IMG/VR virus record: IMGVR_UViG_3300027749_000290
Location: 1 to 35,029 of that record
Reading direction: 5' to 3' (one strand)
Origin: a virus
Length of the DNA: 35,029 nt
How positions within the stretch are numbered: position 1 is the first letter of the stretch; each line of letters starts with the position of its first letter. Of the stretch, positions 2 to 5,174 are shown in pieces. The notes below the pieces were generated by a model. That model was not told the DNA's origin. It ran no database searches and saw only the letters and a list, made by a program, of their open reading frames with translations. Position numbers and translations under genes: made by a program.

Positions 2-649
2 GACGTTCAAGTGATCTGCAACGTGGGTGTGCTGACGACTGGGTTTGATGCCGATGTCAGGTGCATCGTTCTGGCGAGGCCGACAAAGTCTGAGATCTTG
101 TATGTCCAAATGATTGGGCGGGGTCTGCGGACTGCCAAAGGGAAAGCCGACTGCCTGATCTTGGATCACAGCGACACAACCATGCGGCTGGGGTTCGTCA
201 CCGACATTGGAACAAACAAACTGCATGATGGGACAGCCAACCGTCAGGCGGTCGAGAAGACGGCACCCCTGCCAAAGGAATGCCCTGCCTGCGCCTTCCT
301 GAAGCCGCCCAAGGCCCGCAAATGCCCGGCCTGTGGGTTTGAGCCGGTCGCCAAGGTGGATGTTGGCAACGCTGACGGGGAGCTTCTGGAACTGACCCGC
401 AATGGGAAGGTAAAGGCTGAGACGTTCACGATGGCACAAAAGCAGGACTGGTATCGCCAGCTAGTGCTGCATGCCAGCCTGCGTGGCTACAAACCTGGGT
501 GGGCCTATTGGGCATTCAAGGACAAGTTCAAGGTAGGTCCAGATCACTCACTAGATCCCCGCCCCGCCATCACCATGAGCTATGAAGTTCAGAACTGGAT
601 CACCGCACGGAATATCCGCAAAGCTAAAGCTAGGGAGAAGGCAGCGTGA
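2..649 (+). CDS. DEAD/DEAH (SF2) helicase, C-terminal part, cut by window start
   Basis: The reading frame is open from base 2, so this is the 3' part of a longer gene. The visible 215 residues start in the second RecA-like domain of a superfamily 2 helicase. Motif V is seen as TTGFDA and motif VI as QMIGRGLR, both ATP-binding/arginine-finger motifs. After the helicase core come two CPAC pairs (CPACAF...CPACGF), a probable zinc ribbon, and a C-terminal helical tail. In phages such proteins unwind DNA during replication or recombination (UvsW/SSL2-like); the exact role is inferred. Its stop overlaps the next start by 4 bases (GTGA), so it is translationally coupled to the DpdA-like gene. The ATPase motifs I-IV lie outside the window. 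Confidence 0.88.
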   Translation, partial: DVQVICNVGVLTTGFDADVRCIVLARPTKSEILYVQMIGRGLRTAKGKADCLILDHSDTTMRLGFVTDIGTNKLHDGTANRQAVEKTAPLPKECPACAFLKPPKARKCPACGFEPVAKVDVGNADGELLELTRNGKVKAETFTMAQKQDWYRQLVLHASLRGYKPGWAYWAFKDKFKVGPDHSLDPRPAITMSYEVQNWITARNIRKAKAREKAA

Positions 650-1323
650 TCCACTATCATGGAACACCTATAACTCCGATCAATTCATTACTGGAACTTC
701 ATGGACGCCATTTTTGTGTCAGCCATGCTGCGCCGCAAGATGTCGAACGCTGCCATCAGATTGGTCAATCTGTGATGCTGGACAATGGTGCGTTTTCCGC
801 ATGGAAGACCGGGAAACACGTTGACTGGAACGGTTATTATCGATGGGCAGACCGTTGGCTGGATTGCCCGACAACATGGGCCATTATACCAGATGTCATT
901 ACCGGATCTGAGGAAGATCAGGATGCCTTAATCCTTAGATGGCCTCATGGTCAGAGAGGAGTTCCAGTTTGGCACATGCATGAAACGCTTGATCGTCTGG
1001 TGGGACTAACATTGGAATGGCCCAAGGTCTGCATTGGATCATCAGCACAATATGCAAAAGTTCTGTCCCCGATATGGGTCAGTAGGATGGATTTGGCATG
1101 GAACGCCATAATGCGGCATCACCGTCGTGTTCCTCCAATTCATATGTTGAGGGGGATGGCTTGCAGTGGACGAGATTGGCCTTTCGCTTCTGTAGATAGC
1201 ACTGACATTGCGCGCAATCATCATTTGCCGCACCAATCACCTCGCAAAATGGCGGATCGTTGGGATACAGTTCAATGCCCGCATAAATGGGAACAAGCAC
1301 ATGAGCAGATGGAGTTGATGTAA
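646..1323 (+). CDS. TGT/DpdA-like DNA base-exchange enzyme (short form)
   Basis: This 225-residue protein looks like a small member of the tRNA-guanine transglycosylase/DpdA superfamily. DpdA swaps guanine in DNA for a 7-deazaguanine base. Visible landmarks in TIM-barrel order are LDNGAFSAW (D46, the equivalent of the TGT substrate-binding Asp), PDV (D83), VWHMH (107-112), IGSS (130-133), HMLRGM (166-171, like HxLG) and SVDSTD (182-187, D184 at the nucleophile position). No zinc-binding CxC..C tail typical of tRNA TGTs is seen, and the length is well below that of TGTs, which fits the DNA-acting branch. The start is GTG at 646, overlapping the helicase stop, with GGGAGAAGG upstream. The following gene is a VUT/YhhQ-type transporter, which supports a 7-deazaguanine role. 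Substrate and product are inferred. Confidence 0.72.
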   Translation: MIHYHGTPITPINSLLELHGRHFCVSHAAPQDVERCHQIGQSVMLDNGAFSAWKTGKHVDWNGYYRWADRWLDCPTTWAIIPDVITGSEEDQDALILRWPHGQRGVPVWHMHETLDRLVGLTLEWPKVCIGSSAQYAKVLSPIWVSRMDLAWNAIMRHHRRVPPIHMLRGMACSGRDWPFASVDSTDIARNHHLPHQSPRKMADRWDTVQCPHKWEQAHEQMELM

Positions 1324-1820
1324 TGCTAATGATCGCAGTTTATGTTTCCGCTATAGTTGCTGCAAACCTTTTGGTGGCAACATTTGGCCCAGCCATATCT
1401 CCTATCAACGCCTTTTTGTTGATCGGTTTGGATTTGGCGCTTCGTGATTGCCTTCACGAGAAATGGAAGAACAGTAAATTGATCTTGAAGATGGGGGGAG
1501 TGATTTTCGGATCGGGAGTTATCTCATTTGTGTTTGATCAAGGCACAGGAGTGATTGCGCTCGCTTCTATGGCGGCATTCATCGCATCCAACATCGCAGA
1601 TGCATTGATGTACCATGTGCTAAGGGCAAAACCTTATTTGGTAAAGTCAAATGGATCTAACATTGTTGGATCAGCCGTTGATAGTTGTGTTTTCCCGACA
1701 CTCGCATTTGGTTCAATCATGCCAGAGATAATGCTGCTTCAATTTGCTGCGAAGTTTGCGGGAGGTTTTGTTTGGTCAATTGTTTTGGCTCATATGTCCA
1801 AAAGGGAGAAAGCAGCATGA
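1323..1820 (+). CDS. VUT/YhhQ-family transporter (queuosine-precursor type)
   Basis: This hydrophobic protein of 165 residues has about five membrane segments. Residues 41-48 (RDCLHEKW) and the later block with SN at 109-110 and VGSAVDS at 115-121 match the conserved VUT/YhhQ signature. The E. coli member YhhQ imports the 7-deazaguanine precursors preQ0 and preQ1. The protein is shorter than the usual roughly 220 residues, mainly at the N terminus and loops. It would act in the host inner membrane. Its ATG overlaps the stop of the DpdA-like gene (TAATG), and its own stop overlaps the primase start (ATGA), so the three are co-translated. The pairing with a TGT/DpdA-like enzyme suggests the phage feeds its own DNA modification by uptake rather than synthesis, since no queCDEF genes are seen here. 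That role is inferred. Confidence 0.75.
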   Translation: MLMIAVYVSAIVAANLLVATFGPAISPINAFLLIGLDLALRDCLHEKWKNSKLILKMGGVIFGSGVISFVFDQGTGVIALASMAAFIASNIADALMYHVLRAKPYLVKSNGSNIVGSAVDSCVFPTLAFGSIMPEIMLLQFAAKFAGGFVWSIVLAHMSKREKAA

Positions 1821-2752
1821 GTGAGGCCAGAGACATCGCTAAAGGGCATTGGCGGGAGATCTTGCCTGCCTTGGGCCTTGACAGCCGGTTCCTGCAAAAC
1901 CGTCATGGCCCATGCCCTATCTGTGGCGGGGATGACCGTTTCCGGTGGGATGACCAGTTCCAGCTTGGTGGCTTTATCTGCTCCCAGTGCGGCGCAGGGG
2001 ATGGCTTCAAGCTGGCAGGGAAGGTCACCGGCTTATCATTCAACGAAATTGCCGAAAGGATTCGCCAGATGCTTGGACACAGCAATGAGTATCAAGGTGC
2101 AATGGGCGACGTTGAGGAGATGCGCCAGCGGGAGAAGATGAAAACCCTCTGGGAAGGCGCAGGACCGCCAAAGCTATACGGGGCAGTATCCGCCTACCTA
2201 GAAGAGCGTGTTGGCTGTCTCTGGCCCTCCCAGGAGCTTCGCGAGGCATTTTACGGTCAGCATCCCATGATGGTCGCTAGGGTGCGAGATTATACCGGCC
2301 AAAGGGCGGTCAATTTGCACCTGACCATCCTGACCCATGACGGCCACAAAGCTGACCTTGAGATTAGCAAAAGGCTGATGAAGGGTAAGCTGCCAGATGG
2401 GTGCGCGATCCGACTGGGTCCTGAGAAGGCTGTGATGGGTGTTGCGGAGGGGATTGAGACGGCGATTTCCGCCGCCATCATGTTCGACATGCCGGTGTGG
2501 GCTTGCATCAATGGGACGCTGTTGTCCAAATGGATTCCCCCCGCCAAGGCTGAACAGGTGATGGTGTTTGGTGACAATGATGCAAATTTCACTGGACAAT
2601 CAAAGGCTTATCACCTGGCGAACCGGCTAGAGGTCCAATACAAGCGGCGGGTGACGGTGTCCATTCCGCCTGTGGTGGGTCAGGATTGGAACGATCATCT
2701 ACATAAAACCTGGGGCCAAAAGGGGGTAGGTTTTCTGCGGGTTGTGAAATAG
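1817..2752 (+). CDS. DNA primase with zinc finger and Toprim domain
   Basis: This is a primase of 311 residues. The N-terminal zinc finger has C33-x2-C36 (in CPICGGDDRFR) and C55-x2-C58, as in T7 gp4 and P4-alpha type primases. The Toprim domain follows, with the catalytic Glu at 211 (VAEGIET) and the metal-binding pair D253/D255 (FGDNDAN). There is no helicase domain at the C terminus, so it probably works with the separate helicase upstream. I chose the ATG at 1817 because it overlaps the stop of the transporter (ATGA), follows a GGGAG sequence, and begins just before the recognisable N-terminal helix and zinc finger. It makes RNA primers for phage replication. It is the last gene of the plus-strand operon. 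Confidence 0.9.
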   Translation: MSEARDIAKGHWREILPALGLDSRFLQNRHGPCPICGGDDRFRWDDQFQLGGFICSQCGAGDGFKLAGKVTGLSFNEIAERIRQMLGHSNEYQGAMGDVEEMRQREKMKTLWEGAGPPKLYGAVSAYLEERVGCLWPSQELREAFYGQHPMMVARVRDYTGQRAVNLHLTILTHDGHKADLEISKRLMKGKLPDGCAIRLGPEKAVMGVAEGIETAISAAIMFDMPVWACINGTLLSKWIPPAKAEQVMVFGDNDANFTGQSKAYHLANRLEVQYKRRVTVSIPPVVGQDWNDHLHKTWGQKGVGFLRVVK

Positions 2753-3229: not shown

Positions 3230-3532
3230 TCAGCACCCCTTCGCGTTACAGACGACCGTAATGGACTCGTCTATAGCTGAGTTTAAGTTGTCCATATACT
3301 CCTGACCAGTCAGGTTTGAAAACCGGGCCAGTGATATCTTCTCCAATGCCGCCAGCATATCAGGTGCTGCCAGTAGGACGTTCAGATTGTTCTGGGTCCG
3401 GTGCATCATGACCCGACAGACCGAAACGTCCCTGTCGGTGTCCTGCGCCCTGATATAGACGCTGTTGTTGACCCATTTGGTGGTCCAAGGGCTGGGCGTG
3501 TGTGGCTGTCTGTGCTTTACGATAGCGTTCAT
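3230..3532 (-). CDS. Phage protein with HTPxPW and LLAAPDMLAALE motifs
   Basis: This 100-residue protein has the N-terminal motif HTPSPW and the central motif NVLLAAPDMLAALEKI. That pair is typical of a very common family of small phage proteins of unknown function. The start at 3532 is set by a 4-base ATGA overlap with the methyltransferase-like gene; an extension further upstream would run deep into that gene and is unlikely. The C terminus is acidic and helical and ends VVCNAKGC. The family is usually found among early, host-takeover-type genes, which fits this operon. Confidence 0.75.
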   Translation of the reverse strand: MNAIVKHRQPHTPSPWTTKWVNNSVYIRAQDTDRDVSVCRVMMHRTQNNLNVLLAAPDMLAALEKISLARFSNLTGQEYMDNLNSAIDESITVVCNAKGC

Positions 3533-4161
3533 AGTGTCCCCCATTGTTCCGCCATTGCGTCGGCGATCCCGCTGAAGGTTGCAGACCGAATCTTCCACCG
3601 GTCTGCGGATGGCGGCAGGTTGTACCATTCTGGCAAGCTGCGGCCTGATTTGGTGACATGACGCGCACCCTTCCCAACCATTTGGGTGGGCATGAGAGGC
3701 GGCAGATCCTTCAGCCAGAGGCATGTGGTTTTCGTCGCCTCGTGACCAAACATGTAGGGCTGGATGATCTGGTCCGGCTTGCGGATGTGGCTCGATATGA
3801 TGCTGACCGGATTCTCCAATGCGATCCGGGGAATGGGAGCGTCAAGAAGCGTCTGCACAAAGGCGAGGGCCTCTTGCTGTTCCTGCACCTTATCCTTGAA
3901 CCAACGGGCGCCCGACACTGCCAGATGAGTGCAAGGCGGGTGAGCGACCATTAGGTCCCAGCCATCATGCAAAATGTCCAGCACGTTTCCCTGATGGTGA
4001 TATCCCCGCTCTGGATGATTAGTCCTGATCCCTGTGTGGGAATCATAGGTCCAGTTTGGCTTCTCTGTGGGCAGAAGGTCACATGACCATGCATCGTGAC
4101 CAAGCGCCCTGAAGGCGTCCCTGACCGTTCCAGAGTATTCACAGGCGACCAGAACCCTCAT
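3529..4161 (-). CDS. Compact C5-cytosine-methyltransferase-like protein
   Basis: This 210-residue protein has a Rossmann-type SAM-binding start (VLVACEYSGTVRDAF, motif I at about 4-17). PPCTHLAVSG at 75-84 has Cys77 at the position of the catalytic cysteine of C5 DNA methyltransferases. LENP at 115-118 replaces ENV, and a closing RWKIRSATFSGIADAMA resembles motif X. There is essentially no room for a target-recognition domain, so it is much shorter than restriction-type enzymes. Proteins of this kind are frequent in phages and are usually annotated as DNA methyltransferases; the actual base and target are unknown. It overlaps both neighbours by ATGA. It may act with the 7-deazaguanine genes to protect phage DNA, which is inferred. 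Confidence 0.72.
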   Translation of the reverse strand: MRVLVACEYSGTVRDAFRALGHDAWSCDLLPTEKPNWTYDSHTGIRTNHPERGYHHQGNVLDILHDGWDLMVAHPPCTHLAVSGARWFKDKVQEQQEALAFVQTLLDAPIPRIALENPVSIISSHIRKPDQIIQPYMFGHEATKTTCLWLKDLPPLMPTQMVGKGARHVTKSGRSLPEWYNLPPSADRWKIRSATFSGIADAMAEQWGTL

Positions 4162-4964: not shown

Positions 4965-5174
4965 TTATTTGACCAGTCGGCGCCTGCGGCTCATTTCGAC
5001 CGTGTAGGCGTCAAATTCATTTAGCAGCTTCGCCATGTATGGGTCGCGCGTGTCACGCTCTCGCATGACTCCCATGGTCGCGCTAATATCCTGAATCGCA
5101 TGGCGCAATTCAGCGACCGGCTTAGCCTTGGCGCGTGCTTCATAGTAGGCGAGAGTGTATGGTTCAATCCGCAT
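4965..5174 (-). CDS. Hypothetical helical protein, 69 aa
   Basis: This 69-residue, mostly helical and charged protein (MRIEPYTLAYYEARAKAKP...) ends in a basic cluster, RRRRLVK. GGAG lies 7 bases upstream of the ATG at 5174, within the recurring GGAGTC sequence that also precedes the two other minus-strand genes of this operon. No family is recognised. It is the last gene of the minus-strand operon running away from the divergent regulatory region at 6077-6180. Confidence 0.65.
   Translation of the reverse strand: MRIEPYTLAYYEARAKAKPVAELRHAIQDISATMGVMRERDTRDPYMAKLLNEFDAYTVEMSRRRRLVK

Follow-up and report, generated by a model that had tools for sequence, protein, structure and literature searches.

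The DNA analyzed here (the window, meaning the whole stretch of 35,029 bp) is virus contig IMGVR_UViG_3300027749_000290, positions 1 to 35,029, and is probably a fragment of a phage genome. Its left end cuts a helicase gene, and this gene is followed on the same strand by three others, with two copies of a short near-repeat at the outer borders of the middle pair:

2 to 649, plus strand: DNA helicase, 3′ part (5′ end off the contig), upstream flank of the cassette; PHROG 16 (DNA helicase), E 7.8e-29
632 to 649, plus strand: left copy of an 18-bp near-repeat, AGGGAGAAGGCAGCGTGA, in the helicase 3′ end; from the sequence and an empty-site comparison with locus L352
646 to 1323, plus strand: short DpdA, 225 aa, GTG start, predicted guanine/7-deazaguanine transglycosylase; PHROG 887, AlphaFold2 (AF2), Foldseek, hhalign
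1323 to 1820, plus strand: Vut_1/COG1738/YhhQ (QPTR)-family six-helix membrane protein, 165 aa, ATG start, predicted preQ0/preQ1-type importer; PF02592, AF2
1803 to 1820, plus strand: right copy of the near-repeat, AGGGAGAAAGCAGCATGA, 16/18 identical, spanning the transporter 3′ end and the primase start; from the sequence and the empty-site comparison
1817 to 2752, plus strand: DNA primase (Zn-ribbon plus Toprim), downstream flank of the cassette; PF08273 E 4.5e-14, PF13362 E 1.2e-17, PHROG 510 E 2.1e-63

Read directly from the sequence, the helicase stop and DpdA start overlap by 4 nt (GTGA, 646-649), the DpdA stop and transporter start have base 1323 in common (TAATG, an overlap of 1 nt), and the transporter stop and primase start overlap by 4 nt (ATGA, 1817-1820). 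The ORFs, their order, and their overlaps of 1-4 bases are thus as claimed in an earlier note on this DNA. The same four genes occur in the same order in an independent contig, L166, in which the helicase gene is complete and the transporter and primase are identical to those of the window, showing that the arrangement is not an accident of assembly.

A Pfam scan of the 225-aa protein returned no match, and PHROG 887 ("queuine tRNA-ribosyltransferase") matched residues 1-191 with an E of 7e-49. An alignment of the window protein with its relatives from viral contigs (59 sequences) contained 32 invariant positions, among them H3-P8, D46, G48-A49-F50, P82-D83, H110, G131-S132, H166, R169, S182, and D184-S185. 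The motifs quoted in the earlier note (LDNGAFS, PDV, HMLRGM, and SVDSTD) were all present, with most of their letters invariant. By analogy with TGT chemistry, we take D46, D83, and D184, each invariant in all 59 sequences, to be candidate base-recognition and nucleophile residues. The AlphaFold2 model was an eight-strand TIM barrel (pLDDT 91.7, pTM 0.88) resembling TGT/DpdA structures, as the proposed DpdA-like identity had implied. A Foldseek search of the BFVD viral models gave 27 matches with E <1e-3, and those that carried names were almost all DpdA or queuine tRNA-ribosyltransferases. Among solved structures in the PDB, where TM-scores were moderate (0.45-0.54), the best match was Cap10, the TGT-like partner of CdnD, in the Cap10-CdnD complex with NDG modification (9ntn; E 1.5e-4, TM 0.54), and murine TGT ranked ninth. 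The substrate of Cap10 differs, being CdnD with an NDG modification according to the entry title, and no CdnD-type partner was seen at the window.

At the sequence level, the link to the TGT superfamily was bridged through the profile of phage 9g DpdA, to which the window DpdA aligned with an E of 5.8e-12 (hhalign; probability 97.5, 164 columns), pairing DNGAFS with DSGAFS, WHMHE with FHAGE, HMLRG with HGFGI, and VDST with CDSS. The two proteins appear to be homologous barrels with the same order of motifs. However, 9g DpdA has 317 aa and is clustered with genes for GTP cyclohydrolase, QueD, an amidotransferase, and QueE, whereas the window DpdA has 225 aa and no such neighbors. Comparison of the DpdA profile with canonical bacterial TGT was not significant (hhalign, E 0.15-0.18), and phmmer/hmmsearch against PDB sequences gave nothing significant for bacterial TGT homology. 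PF01702 was absent from all 59 family members, and the C-terminal zinc-binding part of TGT was also missing, since the ORF stops ~40 aa past the last motif and has no conserved cysteine cluster. On these grounds a canonical TGT was rejected, and the model and profiles place the 225-aa protein in the DpdA/TGT superfamily as a DpdA. The earlier note had called the protein much smaller than typical TGTs; it is indeed shorter than TGT (375 aa in E. coli), but its length is normal for a large subfamily of phage DpdA.

These comparisons bear on whether the pair acts on tRNA, that is, whether the DpdA is a mini-TGT for which the importer supplies queuosine precursors, raising host tRNA Q during infection. 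Such a role would suit the superfamily, the annotation of DpdA family members as queuine tRNA-ribosyltransferases, and the presence of a TGT, and hence the use of Q, in 19 of 20 host genomes examined. Yet those hosts already possess the enzyme that a phage mini-TGT would duplicate, and the window protein lacks the C-terminal cysteine/histidine zinc part and aligns to 9g DpdA rather than to TGT. Its relative in phage MED16, ~42% identical by tblastn, comes from a phage whose own DNA contains dADG (LC-MS/MS, ~0.13% of G, with only traces of dPreQ0; PMC8306585). We therefore regard action on tRNA as unlikely.

The 165-aa protein matched PF02592 (Vut_1) with an E of 1.2e-13 and 52.2 bits against a gathering score of 27.2. 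The match spanned profile positions 60-143 of 152, the N-terminal third of the transporter being divergent. Its AF2 model (pLDDT 88.7) consisted of six helices of 21-31 residues, so the protein is not obviously truncated, and the nearest solved fold was an ECF-transporter S-component (5edl; TM 0.64, E 0.3). The profile match and the six helices bear out the VUT/YhhQ-family identity given in the earlier note, and by sequence the protein is assigned to the YhhQ-type (QPTR) family, with import of preQ0/preQ1 predicted. E. coli YhhQ (QPTR, COG1738) is likewise a Vut_1 protein with six helices and a predicted 7-deazaguanine importer, and it is required for preQ0 uptake (PMC5372724); the window protein differs from it in its length of 165 aa and its divergent N-terminal third. 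The closest relatives (~50% identity) were transporters of gammaproteobacterial phages such as PEAT2. A search of viral contigs with the window transporter as query found a single contig, L166, and transporter loci were therefore drawn from the neighbors of DpdA and from a phage collection.

The imported compound might also be something other than preQ0 or preQ1. A genuine DpdA could be served by a transporter with a different purine-like substrate, for instance 7-amido-7-deazaguanine, unsubstituted 7-deazaguanine, or guanine, in which case the inserted base would be neither of the two. Substrates are thought to vary within the heterogeneous COG1738, and other purines are possible (PMC5372724). 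The window Vut_1 is only 20-33% identical to the Vut_1 of the other DpdA loci aligned, and the scarcity of dPreQ0 beside dADG in MED16 DNA would agree with a different base. Against this stands the clear Vut_1 match, and we know of no COG1738 member with such a substrate. Another purine as the imported compound thus seems quite unlikely.

The four overlapping genes had been read in the earlier note as an operon linking modification to replication, a claim that did not survive comparison with related phages. A search with the primase recovered 20 related loci besides L166. In some of these, the helicase gene is followed directly by the primase gene, which it overlaps in the same way (L352, L361-L364, and L366), and in others different small genes lie between the two (L348-L350, L353-L355, and L357). 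The latter often encode a protein of ~90-100 aa with a zinc-ribbon-like start (CHCGS...C..C) and a WMPLP-like end. The slot between helicase and primase thus receives variable insertions in these phages, the DpdA-transporter pair is an accessory cassette within it, and the gene overlaps stem from entry of the cassette into this slot of the operon. At the empty site of L352 (helicase/primase junction near 5001), there is one copy of the repeat, identical at 18 of 18 positions to the left copy of the window. The simplest reading is that the cassette entered the slot and duplicated the coupling junction, which for a short, purine-rich near-repeat of 18 bp we propose as an inference.

Pairing of the two genes extended well beyond this locus. 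Among 80 related viral loci recovered by DpdA alone, 60 had a Vut_1 gene within about 0.7 kb of the DpdA gene (39 upstream and 21 downstream). In a control set of 80 loci recovered with another window gene, a methyltransferase (total length 0.855 versus 0.857 Mb), Vut_1 was found once, and that single copy also adjoins a DpdA. The transporter lay beside DpdA in 52 of 75 loci of a second, distant DpdA subfamily (Aoka-type, 208 aa) and in only 3 of 37 loci of a third (phiLM21-type, 274 aa). On a tree of 126 DpdA proteins, the states of the transporter (none, upstream, or downstream) require at least 20 changes, and the history of the association thus includes many gains, losses, or rearrangements; this count is the safer figure, as the sampled loci are partly redundant (same phages) and the control is one gene family. 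Annotated phages with the pair include PEAT2, Tbat1_6, AB3P2, Lg3, Opt-719, RCIP0319, X2_30, RHph_N3_2, Pam5, and ECO111 5-P. These results support a DpdA-transporter pairing much more conserved than chance would produce. Its extension to all DpdA was rejected: besides the phiLM21-type loci, no transporter was found near DpdA in MED16 or in Pseudomonas-type prophages. The nearest relatives of the window DpdA (L002-L007, 80-84% identical) also had no transporter nearby, whereas the window transporter is closest to those of PEAT2 and similar phages, making the window itself an example of such rearrangement. A preQ1 riboswitch was sought upstream, but neither the window nor any of 23 related loci had an Rfam riboswitch at gathering thresholds.

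A cassette of this kind could be a passenger with no current role in modification, either decaying or selected for something else. Its accessory nature, with relatives having either nothing or other genes at the same position, and the patchy occurrence of the transporter across the DpdA tree would be expected of a passenger. Intact ORFs, the invariant residues of the DpdA alignment, tight translational coupling of the cassette genes, and repeated re-formation of the pair in divergent phages all speak for genes in use, and we consider a passenger cassette very improbable.

The absence of visible synthesis genes had also been pointed out in the earlier note, and a Pfam scan of 46 further ORFs of the window agreed, finding no que or fol genes of preQ0 synthesis on the contig, which may be incomplete. 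In bacterial genomes that carry the window DpdA family, true QueC was present in 18 of 20. The two genomes without it (Devosia and Rhizobium subbaraonis) both have DpdA together with Vut_1; expressed by genotype, QueC was absent from two of the three prophage-bearing genomes that have both genes and present in all 17 with DpdA alone. The probability of this split by chance, from exact counting, is 3/190 (0.016), for a post hoc comparison of only 20 genomes in which host lineage is a confounder. Of 385 genomes sampled from the same class as the Devosia host, one had the short DpdA, which is too rare in genomes for the comparison to grow beyond n=20. In the family of Rhizobium subbaraonis (genomes G405-G464 and G005), 42 of 61 sampled genomes lacked QueC and 57 of 61 had Vut_1, which suggests that reliance on imported precursors of queuosine is widespread there; the pair is also present in Rhizobium phages N3_2 and X2_30. 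The pattern of QueC in hosts fits import-fed modification, short of proof.

Taking the loci and hosts together, we think that the pair is probably an accessory cassette of two genes that modifies DNA with an imported 7-deazaguanine base. To the fold and family of both proteins, the conserved acidic residues, and the repeated pairing in divergent phages, this reading adds a mechanism. The Vut_1/YhhQ-type protein would take up a 7-deazaguanine base, most likely preQ0 or preQ1, during infection; the short DpdA would then swap guanines in phage DNA for the imported base or a derivative of it, such as 7-amido-7-deazaguanine; and the modified DNA might be shielded from some host nucleases. In its favor, phage 9g DNA carries dG+ (PMC6884629), and MED16 has dADG in its DNA although it has no synthesis genes (PMC8306585). 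Counting against it, the modified share of G in MED16 is small and the tested enzymes still cut its DNA at GA/GGC-containing sites (PMC8306585), the transporter does not accompany every DpdA, and a distant Vut_1 gene in phage mEp021 adjoins a methyltransferase instead. In the literature searched, we found no nucleoside data for a phage with DpdA and Vut_1 only.

Several parts of this picture are already published, namely both protein families, DpdA-only phages, phage YhhQ homologs, a transporter in a que cluster, and the idea of salvage. DpdA-only phages form the third group of Hutinet et al. (2019), for which host-made or imported precursors had been suggested; the same survey reported phage YhhQ homologs, with no correlation with DpdA (PMC6884629). 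Members such as MED16 and Salmonella phage 7-11 resemble the window in having a short DpdA without genes for preQ0 synthesis, but MED16 differs in the lack of a transporter gene near its DpdA. A preQ0/preQ1 transporter inside a phage que cluster, together with the salvage hypothesis, has likewise been described (PMC6266253, PMC8310023). Pantoea phage Vid5 and the Enterobacter phage EC151/Seuratvirus clusters share with the window a Vut_1-type transporter and a DpdA/TGT; in those phages, however, the transporter lies inside a que/fol cluster and the DpdA is longer, whereas the window has a stand-alone two-gene cassette. We did not find a systematic pairing of the stand-alone short DpdA with a transporter stated in the literature searched, in which recent papers were thinly covered, and the pairing may be new here.

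If the favored reading is correct, import by itself is enough to provide phages with a base for DNA modification, using two small genes where about six are usual, and DNA modification by lone-DpdA phages in hosts unable to synthesize the precursor would be explained. More tentatively, and with the odds somewhat against it, import-fed modification could be a widespread phage strategy, in which a minimal DpdA with its own importer was repeatedly re-assembled from different transporter lineages, entered early operons in the form of a mobile cassette, and is usable in hosts that cannot make preQ0 (many Rhizobiaceae), with transporters possibly tuned to a base other than preQ0/preQ1. The pair bears on the question raised in 2019 of whether DpdA-only phages use exogenous precursors, and its conservation offers a handle on the base used by each DpdA through its transporter. 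Lg3 and Opt-719 are E. coli phages and make the pair amenable to laboratory work.

A few further observations were made in the course of the analysis. Pfam scanning of the window ORFs between 2959 and 35027 gave a Cpn10 (GroES-like) domain (E 1.3e-7), in an ORF that was not pinned down, and two matches to recombination endonuclease VII. In Caulobacter phage DMCA (L085, 5705-6726), a gene annotated as 6-carboxytetrahydropterin synthase (QueD) directly precedes the short DpdA, and the stretch yielded no Vut_1, which suggests QueD as an alternative partner of DpdA. In Enterobacteria phage mEp021 (L173, 3968-5235), a distant Vut_1 lies directly beside a "DNA cytosine methyltransferase" rather than a DpdA, and the PPC...SGARWF motif of this methyltransferase resembles a window protein encoded at 3529-4161 on the minus strand (PHROG 757).
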